Assembly (NCBI RefSeq): GCF_900128945.1
Contig: NZ_FQUD01000001.1
Coordinates: forward strand, 930,001-994,000
Source of the DNA: Chryseobacterium sp. OV279
Lineage (GTDB): Bacteria > Bacteroidota > Bacteroidia > Flavobacteriales > Weeksellaceae
Reading direction: 5' to 3'
Length of the DNA stretch: 64,000 bases
Every line of letters starts with the position of its first letter. Positions within the stretch are counted from its first letter, which is position 1. The position numbers and the translations under genes were made by a program. Under the pieces are notes generated by a model. That model worked only from the letters and a program-made list of their open reading frames with translations, made no database searches and was not told where the DNA came from. Of this stretch, positions 28,893 through 46,021 are shown piece after piece.

Positions 28893-29687
28893 TTAGCTTT
28901 CTCTCCACTCCTCAGGAATATCACAAACCGGGATAGGATTGATTTTATGTTGAGCTGCTTTGTGCATTCTGTCAAAAATTAAAAAGACTTCTTTGTCTCG
29001 CCCTTCATAATCGTTGGCAGTTTTAGTTCCGTATTCCTTCTGGATTTTTTCCAGTTCAGGATAGGTAGCTCCAATTTGTTGTTCATCCGTTCTGTCCACA
29101 TCCCAAAGTCCGTCTGTAGGAATCGCTTCCTGAATGTTTTTAACCAGATTTAATGATTTTGCAAGCGTATACACTTCTGTTTTGTAAAGGTCTGCGATAG
29201 GAGAGACATCTACACCGCCATCACCATATTTTGTATAAAACCCAATACCGAAATCCTCCACTTTATTTCCTGTTCCGCATACCAGAAGACCGTTGATCTG
29301 TCCGTAATAATACAGGGTAAGCATTCTCAAACGAGATCTCGTATTGGCAAAAGCCAGTTTCTCATTAGGATACAGATCATCTTTTACATCAAATGCTTTA
29401 TAAAGTTCTTCAAAAGCAGGAGTAAGGTTCACAGACATTGCTTCCACATTAGGAAACCTGGATTTCAGATCATTCATATGCTCCCAGGCACGGTCTATTT
29501 GATCCGGTTTCTGGCGTATCGGCATTTCAATCAGAAGGGTTTTTAAGCCTGTCATGGCAGCAAGCGTAGAAACCACACCGGAATCTACACCTCCGGAAAC
29601 TCCAATGACATATCCGTTTACTTTAGCTTTTACAGCATAATCTTTTAACCACTGTACAATATGATCTGTTACTTTTTGAGTCTGCAT
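28893..29687 (-). CDS. nadE: NAD synthetase (ammonia-dependent)
   Basis: The 264-residue protein has the ATP pyrophosphatase loop SGGVDSG at residues 31-37 and the later GTGNKVEDFGIGFYTKYGDGG segment of NadE. It converts nicotinic acid adenine dinucleotide, ATP and ammonia to NAD in the cytoplasm. No glutaminase domain is present, so ammonia is the direct donor. The barnase operon follows 39 bp downstream on the same strand and could be co-transcribed, which would be an odd pairing of a housekeeping gene with a toxin. The upstream region contains the structured element at 29815-29892. Confidence 0.93.
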   Translation of the reverse strand: MQTQKVTDHIVQWLKDYAVKAKVNGYVIGVSGGVDSGVVSTLAAMTGLKTLLIEMPIRQKPDQIDRAWEHMNDLKSRFPNVEAMSVNLTPAFEELYKAFDVKDDLYPNEKLAFANTRSRLRMLTLYYYGQINGLLVCGTGNKVEDFGIGFYTKYGDGGVDVSPIADLYKTEVYTLAKSLNLVKNIQEAIPTDGLWDVDRTDEQQIGATYPELEKIQKEYGTKTANDYEGRDKEVFLIFDRMHKAAQHKINPIPVCDIPEEWRES

Positions 29688-29814
29688 TGTTTATTTTTTA
29701 GAGTGTTTACATTTATTGTTTTTCAACATGAAAATATTCTTCTTAATTCGTTATGTTGAAAGAATTCTTAACGTTATTTTTTTCAAACATTAAGGCATTT
29801 AGAATCCTAACTTT

Positions 29815-29892
29815 AAAGATTGATTAAGCATATCTTCGATATTTTAAGCGATGTGCTTCATTTTGCCATCGGCAAATTCTTAAACAATCTTT
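29815..29892. other. Compact four-way-junction (cloverleaf-like) inverted-repeat element
   Basis: Outer arms AAAGATTGATTAAG (29815-29828) and CTTAAACAATCTTT (29879-29892) pair at 13 of 14 positions. Three hairpins fill the inside: ATATC/GATAT (29830-29842), AAGC/GCTT (29846-29858) and TTTGCC/GGCAAA (29862-29876). At most three bases separate neighbouring stems. It lacks tRNA loop signatures. It may be a small mobile palindromic repeat or a structured RNA between the nadE promoter and a GNAT gene. Confidence 0.5.
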
Positions 29893-29974
29893 CTTTAGCT
29901 ACATCAAAAACATCTTAACTTCTTCATGTTTATAAAAAATATTAAAAATATAATTTAAAAAATTCTCTTAGCTA

Positions 29975-30508
29975 CTATTTTATTCCAAATTCTTTAGGGT
30001 ATTTTACTACACCTTTTACATTTTTTAATCCGTCTTTCGTCAGTTCAACAGCCATGCCATTGATCTCAGGAATTTCAAACGGAAAAGAGATTCCAAAATT
30101 ACTGGTTTTTTCGTAACCAAACTTAGGATAATAATTTTCGTGCCCGATCAGGATGACAGAGTGATAGCCCAGTTCCTTCGCAATGGTATGTCCTTGAAGG
30201 ATCAGCTGTCCTCCAATTCCCTGATTCTGAAATTCAGGTCGTACGGAAACAGGAGCCAGAGCCAGTGATTCGAATGTTTCGTCACCATTCACGATTTTAA
30301 GTTTTGTGAATAAAATATGGCCTGCGATTTCACCCTCTTCAGTTTCAGCAACCAGAGAAAGTTCCGGAATGAAAGCATCAGATTTCCTTAATTTTTCCAC
30401 AAGAAAATGCTCCTGATGGTCACTTTCCTCCATGGTTCTGAAAGCTTCTTCCGTAAGCTCGAATACCTTTTTATGATCTTTTTCCTCTTCCTGTCTTATC
30501 GTCAGCAT
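29975..30508 (-). CDS. GNAT-family N-acetyltransferase
   Basis: The start at 30508 (MLTIRQEEEKDHKKVFELTE) is chosen because the acetyltransferase fold begins there. A longer start at 30589 would overlap the upstream gene by 80 bp. The 177-residue protein has VSVRPEFQNQGIGGQLILQG, the acetyl-CoA-binding loop (QNQGIG), and HENYYPKFGYEKTSNFGI, a pattern of the YhbS-like group. It lies 1 bp after the next GNAT gene's stop. Substrate unknown. Confidence 0.85.
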   Translation of the reverse strand: MLTIRQEEEKDHKKVFELTEEAFRTMEESDHQEHFLVEKLRKSDAFIPELSLVAETEEGEIAGHILFTKLKIVNGDETFESLALAPVSVRPEFQNQGIGGQLILQGHTIAKELGYHSVILIGHENYYPKFGYEKTSNFGISFPFEIPEINGMAVELTKDGLKNVKGVVKYPKEFGIK

Positions 30509-30509
30509 A

Positions 30510-31037
30510 TTATGGCAGATAGTTATTGCGTTTGAGTTCATACCAGTTACAGATCCCGTCCGGTTCCTCAAATTCACCGGTTTTTTCAAAACCTAATTTT
30601 GTTAAAATATGATTGGAACCTTCATTTGCAAAATGTGCACAGGCATAGATGATATCCGCCTTCATATCAATAAATCCAAGGTCAAGAGAAGCTCTTGCAG
30701 CTTCCATTGCATAACCTTTCCCCCATGATTCAGGTAAATAGCGGTAGCCAAGCTCCAGAACATTTTTGTACCCGTTGATCTCGTCAGTCAGAAATTTCAG
30801 CCCGCTCCAGCCGATCAGTAATCCGGTTTCCTTTTCAATCACAGCCAGTCTTCCTGTACCATTTTCATCGTATTGCTTCCTGATTTTTCTAATCACTTCT
30901 AATGCCTGACTTTTTTCTGTAAGTACCGGAACCCCGATGTATTTCATCACTTCCGGGTTAGAATCCAGCAGAAACATTCTATCAATATCTGTTTCTTCAA
31001 GTTCTCGTAAAAGCAGTCTTTTTGTTTCTGTTTTCAT
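30510..31037 (-). CDS. GNAT-family N-acetyltransferase, RimJ/RimL-like
   Basis: The 175-residue protein starts MKTETKRLLLRELEETD, the usual opening of RimJ/RimL-type acetyltransferases (ETxRLxLRxL). Its acetyl-CoA segment reads YRYLPESWGKGYAMEAARAS and the C-terminal part NEGSNHILTKLGFEKTGEFE. It likely acetylates an N-terminal or small-molecule amine. It is followed almost without gap by another GNAT gene and preceded by a secreted leucine-rich-repeat gene 9 bp upstream. Confidence 0.88.
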   Translation of the reverse strand: MKTETKRLLLRELEETDIDRMFLLDSNPEVMKYIGVPVLTEKSQALEVIRKIRKQYDENGTGRLAVIEKETGLLIGWSGLKFLTDEINGYKNVLELGYRYLPESWGKGYAMEAARASLDLGFIDMKADIIYACAHFANEGSNHILTKLGFEKTGEFEEPDGICNWYELKRNNYLP

Positions 31038-45791: not shown

Positions 45792-45835
45792 ACTATTTTA
45801 CTTTTCCTCCGAAAGTAATGTGTTTTTTAGTTAGT

Positions 45836-45986
45836 ATTTTGGCAGGTCTCCTGACTTTCGCTTTCTGCACCTTCCCGTATGAACAGTGGTTTTTTGCAGA
45901 AACTCTTATTGCGATTTACAGTTGCGGGGACAGCTTGGGCGTTTCACCCAATTCCCTATTATTTCCAATACGCTGGAAACCAAAAT
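45836..45986 (-). ncRNA. Cobalamin (AdoCbl/B12) riboswitch
   Basis: On the minus strand the transcript contains GCTGTCCCCGCAACTGTAA (the core) and the B12 box AGTCAGGAGACCTGCC (45856-45841). P1 closes through ATTTTGG at the 5' end (45986-45980) and CCAAAAT at the 3' end (45842-45836). Such riboswitches repress btuB when cobalamin is abundant. The aptamer ends 44 nt before the btuB ATG, leaving room for translation control. Confidence 0.93.
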
Positions 45987-45991
45987 TTTTG

Positions 45992-46021
45992 CAAAGATAA
46001 CCTTTTAAATCTATTGCACAA
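45992..46021 (-). promoter_or_regulatory. Predicted promoter of the btuB-btuG operon
   Basis: Read on the minus strand, TTG (46021-46019) is followed after 19 nt by TATCTTTG (45999-45992). A start a few bases later coincides with the first stem of the riboswitch at 45986. This agreement supports both calls. Confidence 0.7.

Follow-up and report, generated by a model that had tools for sequence, protein, structure and literature searches.

A most likely mobile, gene-less palindromic element upstream of a nadE-like gene in Chryseobacterium and the apparent link of its family to GxxExxY nuclease genes

The window analyzed here (the whole stretch of 64,000 nucleotides from Chryseobacterium sp. 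OV279) carries on its minus strand a nadE-like gene, which, from the preliminary description and a familiar motif, we take to encode NAD+ synthetase. Upstream of it on the same strand lies a gene that presumably encodes a GNAT acetyltransferase. The region between the two genes contains a palindromic element with a four-way-junction core, and this core lies inside a second, outer pair of inverted arms. The outer arms (AAACATTAAG.../...CTTCATGTTT, the right one also read as ...CTTCTTAATGTTT) are common to the copies that were aligned with their flanks, and the element therefore runs from ∼29785 to 29931. The features of the locus, in window positions, are as follows.

28893–29687, minus strand: nadE-like gene, with an orthologue in 96 of 96 genus genomes.
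29700–29972 (approximate ends), no strand: stretch missing at the empty site of relatives, from a nine-species alignment and distances in 30 loci.
29722–29761, no strand: second small palindrome TTCAACAT...ATGTTGAA, inside the same insertion and also present in genome G017.
29785–29802, plus strand: left outer arm AAACATTAAGGCATTTAG, conserved in related copies.
29815–29892, no strand: four-way-junction core with an outer stem and three hairpins, the patch of the preliminary description.
29815–29822/29885–29892 and 29824–29828/29879–29883, no strand: outer stem of the core.
29830–29842, no strand: hairpin 1, ATATC-TTC-GATAT, T-A to C-G in 1 of 10 copies.
29846–29858, no strand: hairpin 2, AAGC-GATGT-GCTT, not aligned in register and therefore left out of the covariation count.
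29862–29876, no strand: hairpin 3, TTTGCC-ATC-GGCAAA, C-G to A-T in 3 of 10 copies.
29914–29931, minus strand: right outer arm CTTAACTTCTTCATGTTT (inverted), conserved in related copies.
29975–30589, minus strand: gene upstream of nadE, on the same strand.

Elsewhere in the window, a cobalamin riboswitch (RF00174) was found at 45824–45999 on the minus strand (110.1 bits, E 1.1e-26).

The core had been described as two 14-nt arms that enclose three hairpins of 5, 4, and 6 bp, and direct reading of the sequence reproduces this geometry. In the arms AAAGATTGATTAAG and CTTAAACAATCTTT, all but one of the 14 positions form pairs, the exception being an A-A mismatch, and the hairpins occupy 29830–29842, 29846–29858, and 29862–29876. 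The stems are separated by 1, 3, 3, and 2 unpaired bases, within the maximum of three given before. The reported absence of tRNA signs from the 78-nt core agrees with the tRNA gene call for the window (0 genes), by which a tRNA-like element is ruled out.

When folded as minus-strand RNA, the core assumes the four-way junction as its minimum-energy fold (−19.3 kcal/mol, z −3.47), and the same junction is the minimum-energy structure of the plus strand as DNA. For the plus-strand RNA, a different structure has the lowest energy (−18.8, z −2.95). Only 1 of 200 dinucleotide shuffles folded as well as the core RNA for each strand. The longer stretch 29780–29936 is less unusual as minus-strand RNA (z −1.70, with 12 of 200 shuffles as low). 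A search with the Rfam covariance models gave no match at the core site even at E ≤ 1, and a promoter and terminator scan at the element found nothing above chance when compared with shuffles.

We read 30 loci of the nadE region and measured the distance from the nadE start to a common motif at the end of the next gene. This distance is 19–24 nt in 25 of the 30 loci and 293–295 nt in three (those of G061, G070, and the host genome). It amounts to 173 nt in G017, because the outer arms are present there without the core, and could not be measured in one locus (L302). The site thus holds an insertion of ∼275 nt, and 25 of the 30 relatives' loci are without that stretch. The core itself (29815–29892) was found in G061 and G070, and it is missing in G017 from between the otherwise common arms. 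In a few of the 25 short loci (e.g. L280, L281, and L288), the neighboring gene looks decayed by eye. No target-site duplication was readable at the nadE site, where the junctions of the relatives are too diverged in the alignment. Because most relatives are without the element, we infer that in its present place it probably does nothing essential for nadE.

Further copies, for which a search had been proposed in the preliminary description, do occur at non-orthologous sites, together with a related palindrome family in the host genome. With at most nine candidates scored per genome, six of the 98 genus genomes together yielded at least 10 copies at E ≤ 1.1e-5. Three of these lie at the nadE site (host genome, G061, and G070) and at least seven at other sites (two in G061, two in G022, and one each in G070, G047, and G041). 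A BLAST census of the host genome returned one strong place and three others at E 0.022–0.27; one of the weak places (C1:495780) is a related palindrome on closer look. That only one place is strong reflects the divergence of the copies, and pattern searches were therefore used.

The pattern CATTAAG-TTAAG-CTTAA has 48 matches in the host genome, many of them overlapping, versus 6 for the reversed control, and 2,909 versus 482 matches in 96 genomes. From 31 host-genome loci, 27 could be delimited as palindromes with CATTAAG-like ends and four could not. The delimited palindromes contain TTAAG units ∼10 nt apart and hairpin interiors that vary, and by eye the likeness between copies stops just outside the arms (19 of 21 loci delimited). 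Within the 64-kb window, the arm patterns are no commoner than chance, indicating that a single element is present there. As in REP/REPIN, the family thus comprises many extragenic palindromes scattered over the genome; as in MITEs, the element has terminal inverted repeats and no gene. The earlier reading as "folded RNA or palindromic mobile repeat" stands in its second half, given the non-orthologous copies, the empty site in relatives, and the related host-genome family; its first half found neither an Rfam family nor a promoter scan better than shuffles.

In a second set of palindromes, the B-type, 9 of 11 loci lie close to one or both ends of a larger MITE-like unit (both ends in 2); their spread therefore needs no GxxExxY protein, and they were not used as evidence. 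In the host genome, a MITE-like unit with ends like TTTCAAAACTTGGGGAG was seen near AAACATTAAG...CTTAATGTTT palindromes at L059, L060, L066, L068, L070, L074, L075, L079, and L080, with both ends at L070 and L080, and is probably a separate transposon family. The CATTAAG palindromes at L312, L314, L315, L319, L320, and L321 adjoin repeats of other arm types (CACAGAT and CACAAAAG), which looks as if different families nest in one another.

Paired base changes among copies had been named as the sign of a folded RNA. They are present in one pair of hairpin 3 in 3 of 10 copies of the window subtype, but 50 of 500 shuffles score at least as high in covariation as these 10 copies, with hairpin 2 not counted and 88.0% pairing. 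Covariation in this subtype is therefore not significant and only suggestive. A hand parse of all five stems, made without a control, gave 266 of 300 cells paired. Paired changes cannot tell RNA from single-stranded or cruciform DNA.

In the host genome, one pair of arms ∼600 bp apart encloses a gene for a 134-amino acid GxxExxY protein, with AAACATTAAG arms on both sides of the gene. The gene presumably lies between sufC and sufB. Its product matches TIGR04256 (GxxExxY) with 138.1 bits against a curated cut-off of 35 and PF13366 (PDDEXK_3) with 132 against a cut-off of 22, and PF13366 genes are found in 91 of 96 genus genomes. GxxExxY is named in NCBIfam only by its motif.

Residues Glu-30, Asp-70, Glu-80, Lys-82, Gln-94, and Tyr-98 are invariant over eight proteins of different clades. 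In 55 sequences from many phyla, Glu-30, Asp-70, Glu-80, and Lys-82 remain invariant, and Gln-94 and Tyr-98 are found in at least 90%. These residues fit what we take to be the D...ExK...QxxxY catalytic pattern. Among solved structures, Cas4 SSO0001 comes closest to an AlphaFold model of the protein (pLDDT 95.8, pTM 0.88), with Z 9.4 over 100 residues and a Foldseek E of 3.6e-3; Foldseek returned no solved structure at E ≤ 0.001 for this model. Many nucleases follow at Z 6–8, including archaeal Holliday-junction resolvases (Hjc 1gef, Z 7.0 over 87 residues). Sequence identity in the Cas4 SSO0001 and Hjc 1gef alignments is only 17–19%, and since a Z of 7 is near the background common for unrelated models, we do not claim resolvase activity. 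From its fold and catalytic residues, the GxxExxY protein is predicted to be a small RecB/Cas4-like PD-(D/E)XK nuclease. It resembles Cas4, RecB-family, and Hjc nucleases in fold and in the D...ExK...QxxxY pattern, at the low identity given above. The Rpn/YhgA-like PD-(D/E)XK nucleases are linked to recombination and were once annotated as transposases; they belong to Pfam families different from GxxExxY, and we liken them to it by description only.

To compare arms around GxxExxY genes, the 450 nt upstream of each gene were aligned with the reverse complement of the 450 nt downstream, for 72 of 73 fetched loci. Inverted arms exceeded the 95th percentile of mismatched pairs in 30 of the 72 loci, with ∼4 expected; in direct orientation, nine of the 72 also lie above the threshold. 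The arm types are CATTAAG, CACAAAAG, CACAGAT, CACAAAGG, CGCAAAG, and CGCAGAT. On the protein tree, arm type requires 8 changes for 67 labeled genes (minimum 5, shuffled mean 36.8, 0 of 200 shuffles as low), where the labels are motifs picked by eye after the first arm comparison, 29 of the 67 stem from one side only, and the test is inflated by genes at orthologous sites. Arm type thus appears to follow the GxxExxY protein clade.

In the CATTAAG clade, arms are present on both sides in 25 of 28 genes. The 28 loci read in the genus occupy only two conserved sites, indicating that the gene is inherited in place. At L160 and L174, the upstream half of the element is present twice in tandem, with AAACATTAAG at −184 and −84 of the GxxExxY gene; this duplication is perhaps a one-ended copying event.

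The cross-phylum sample comprised 80 GxxExxY loci of a species-level genome collection, four of them from Chryseobacterium. Twelve were dropped, six in which the regular expression found no ORF and six truncated at the end of a contig. Of the 68 usable loci, 35 have inverted arms within 300 nt that score 15 or more, and 33 stay below this score. The same score was reached by 4 of the 335 mismatched pairs, by 1 of the 129 neighboring ORFs, and by none of the 68 shuffled sequences. Neighboring ORFs whose flanks are clear of the GxxExxY gene do not reach this score in any of 41 cases. By record title, the 35 armed loci belong to Bacteroidota, Ignavibacteria/Chlorobi, Verrucomicrobia, Planctomycetes, Cloacimonadota, and Proteobacteria. 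Most of their arms are short units in direct array (CACAGAG, CACGGAG, CATTAAG, CACATAG, and CGCCAAG), and a few of the 35 loci match far from the gene or through another kind of repeat (e.g. L267 and L254). This test is largely free of the inflation by orthologous sites, and the association of inverted arms with GxxExxY genes is well supported.

The arms of gene-less copies were also compared directly with those beside genes. The right arm of the gene-less host-genome copy L312 matches the arm beside the L158 gene in 38 of 41 columns (score 32, maximum of 1,000 shuffles 15.5). For the right arm of the window element, the score is 21 against the arms of the host-genome GxxExxY gene and 22 against L164; the 65 genes of other clades do not exceed 12, and 700 shuffles reach 16. 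Against genes at the second site it is only 10.5–12, so that this arm is clearly above shuffles only for the suf-site genes. The left arm scores 9–14 against seven CATTAAG-clade genes (12 for the host-genome gene); five of the seven exceed the other-clade maximum of 10.5 (65 genes), and none exceeds the best of 700 shuffles (14.0; 95th percentile 10.0). Ends common to GxxExxY genes are thus clear for the L312 arm and the right arm of the window element, with the left arm no higher than the best shuffle.

Palindrome number varies with the presence of the gene, which we called at ≥63% identity. Genomes with a CATTAAG-clade gene (n = 28) have a median of 39.5 pattern matches versus 12.5 in genomes without one (n = 68; one-sided p = 5.7e-5), and the control pattern does not differ between the two groups (p = 0.63). 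The link is imperfect: 16 of the 68 genomes without the gene still have at least 30 matches (159 in G022), and 4 of the 28 with the gene have fewer than 15. In other genera, eight genomes whose query locus encodes a closer relative (55–66% identity) gave 93 matches versus 36 for the control, and 12 further genomes, counted regardless of their gene content, gave 96 versus 75. Across these 20 genomes, the contrast is weak.

A four-way-junction repeat is also found directly upstream of many of the 31 genes of another GxxExxY clade, with proteins of 125–129 amino acids. In the CGCAAAG-type clade, a four-way repeat lies on the upstream side, and the downstream arm is mostly not seen. Of the 31 genes put in the 125–129-amino acid clade by a sequence filter, 22 entered the alignment of the upstream repeat; L089, L097, L098, L101, L107, L108, L115, L118, and L125 were left out, their core not being delimitable in register. 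The aligned sequences are orthologues, and the structure counted is one that we named; the RNAalifold consensus did not itself draw the three-hairpin fold.

In these 22 sequences, the three hairpins are 91.8% paired, and 29 cells are changed on both sides versus a shuffled mean of 14.0 (0 of 500 shuffles as high) and at most 4 when the structure is slid along the alignment. Support for the structure does not come from two further counts, those of pairs with changes on both sides (6, with 40 of 500 shuffles as high) and of further pair types (14, with 497 of 500 as high). Paired changes appear clearer in this upstream repeat than in the window subtype. At the loci of this clade (L089 and L097–L140), the hairpins of the upstream repeat are compensated, and in the loci viewed, the genes next downstream begin alike and look like glycoside hydrolases.

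Most likely, the element in the window is a palindromic mobile element without a gene, and its family appears, from the arm comparisons, to be tied by its ends to the genes of the predicted GxxExxY nucleases. We favor, with moderate confidence, the view that it is a gene-less copy of a Chryseobacterium palindromic family that would be mobilized in trans by the GxxExxY nuclease. A full element would consist of two inverted outer arms, made of short TTAAG-containing units ∼10 nt apart, and of an interior that would be either a set of hairpins (here the four-way junction) or the gene for the 134-amino acid GxxExxY protein. The nuclease may recognize the arms, or hairpin or cruciform DNA formed by the single-stranded arms, and would cut at the arms, after which the DNA of the element could be duplicated or relocated. 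Copies without the gene would be mobilized in trans, with the gene staying at one or two conserved sites. Spreading by GxxExxY nucleases is the best available mechanism, to which we give somewhat better than an even chance; the mobilization itself is putative.

It is rather unlikely that the palindromes are instead a passive, pre-existing repeat that GxxExxY genes use as an insertion target, so that the arms would belong to the target. Some insertion sequences target REPs, and the many copies with arms but no gene, the few conserved sites at which GxxExxY genes sit, and the upstream repeat of the CGCAAAG-type clade, mostly seen without a downstream arm, are all in keeping with such a target. 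A passive target does not account well for arm types that change with the protein clade, nor for the inverted arms that frame roughly half of the genes in the sample from several phyla. If the target were specific to the clade, the enzyme would itself recognize the arms.

Alternatively, the element could be an ordinary MITE, moved by a DDE transposase with CATTAAG ends, and GxxExxY a mere passenger. Its terminal inverted repeats and copies of ∼100–150 nt are MITE-like, and a MITE-like unit, with other ends, carries the B-type palindromes. We nevertheless regard this as distinctly improbable, since the arm type of each GxxExxY clade would need a transposase of its own; the enzymes examined for linkage to arms were those of the GxxExxY genes, their neighboring ORFs, and the four Y1 matches of the host genome. 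The element is similar to MITEs in being small and gene-less, with terminal inverted repeats and a putative longer autonomous relative. It differs from them in its multi-hairpin interior, and no target-site duplication was seen at the diverged junctions.

REPIN/REP sequences with RAYTs form systems of many short extragenic palindromes and a low-copy gene at conserved sites flanked by the same repeats, with dispersal inferred to occur in trans. The palindromes described here share these properties, with many short palindromes, a conserved-site gene flanked by the same repeats, and a dispersal in trans that we infer. In contrast to REPIN-RAYT, the linked protein is a predicted PD-(D/E)XK nuclease rather than a Y1/HUH transposase, and the arms are arrays of ∼10-nt units rather than the single tagged hairpin of a REPIN.

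That the palindromes are themselves REPINs of a RAYT (TnpA-REP, Y1/HUH transposase) system is very improbable: dispersed extragenic palindromes with an immobile gene look alike in both cases and the host genome has four Y1_Tnp matches, but the flanks of all four hold other repeats and none has CATTAAG arms. A Y1/HUH transposase flanked by the same repeat, which defines the REPIN-RAYT family, was thus not found among the four matches in the host genome. The repeats flanking these Y1/IS200-like matches are CGTCCCTTTGGGACT at L093, GTAGGAGCGACCTGTTAA at L094, CCGCACGAATCCTTTC at L095, and GGCGCGAGCGTCCCGCTCGTG at L096, and the four loci are RAYT-REP-like pairs of the host genome.

Equally remote is a structured RNA kept for its fold, whether as a small RNA or as a 5′ element regulating nadE: the minus-strand RNA has the sense of nadE and folds into the four-way junction (z −3.47), and some paired changes occur among copies, but most relatives keep nadE without the element, related copies lie at other sites, neither an Rfam match nor a promoter or terminator above chance was found, and covariation in the window subtype is not significant.

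Proteins annotated as GxxExxY are common in bacterial genomes. In the literature passages that give a name or accession of the family, it occurs only as a gene name or as a domain beside a reverse transcriptase, and passages of PMC8934634, PMC12085832, and PMC2817692 showed no tie between GxxExxY and repeats. The literature searched, mostly outside subscription journals, contained no function of GxxExxY, no link of GxxExxY to repeats, and no description of a system of palindromes and GxxExxY proteins. A repeat-spreading system with a GxxExxY link may thus be undescribed in bacteria.

The GxxExxY proteins of many phyla could, with about even chances for and against, be enzymes of a new mobile or repeat-spreading class. 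Such a nuclease would recognize ∼10-nt units in inverted array, together with the hairpins or four-way junctions that they enclose, and would thereby spread gene-less palindromes through the genome. The class would be an analogue of REPIN-RAYT that evolved independently on a different nuclease fold. If GxxExxY genes are framed by inverted arms specific to their clade, and these arms also occur as scattered palindromes without the gene, the family would acquire a DNA substrate and a role open to experiment, and there would be a candidate enzyme for a large set of repeats in Bacteroidota and other phyla that are so far unexplained. The REPIN-RAYT way of life would then have arisen more than once, with unrelated nucleases.
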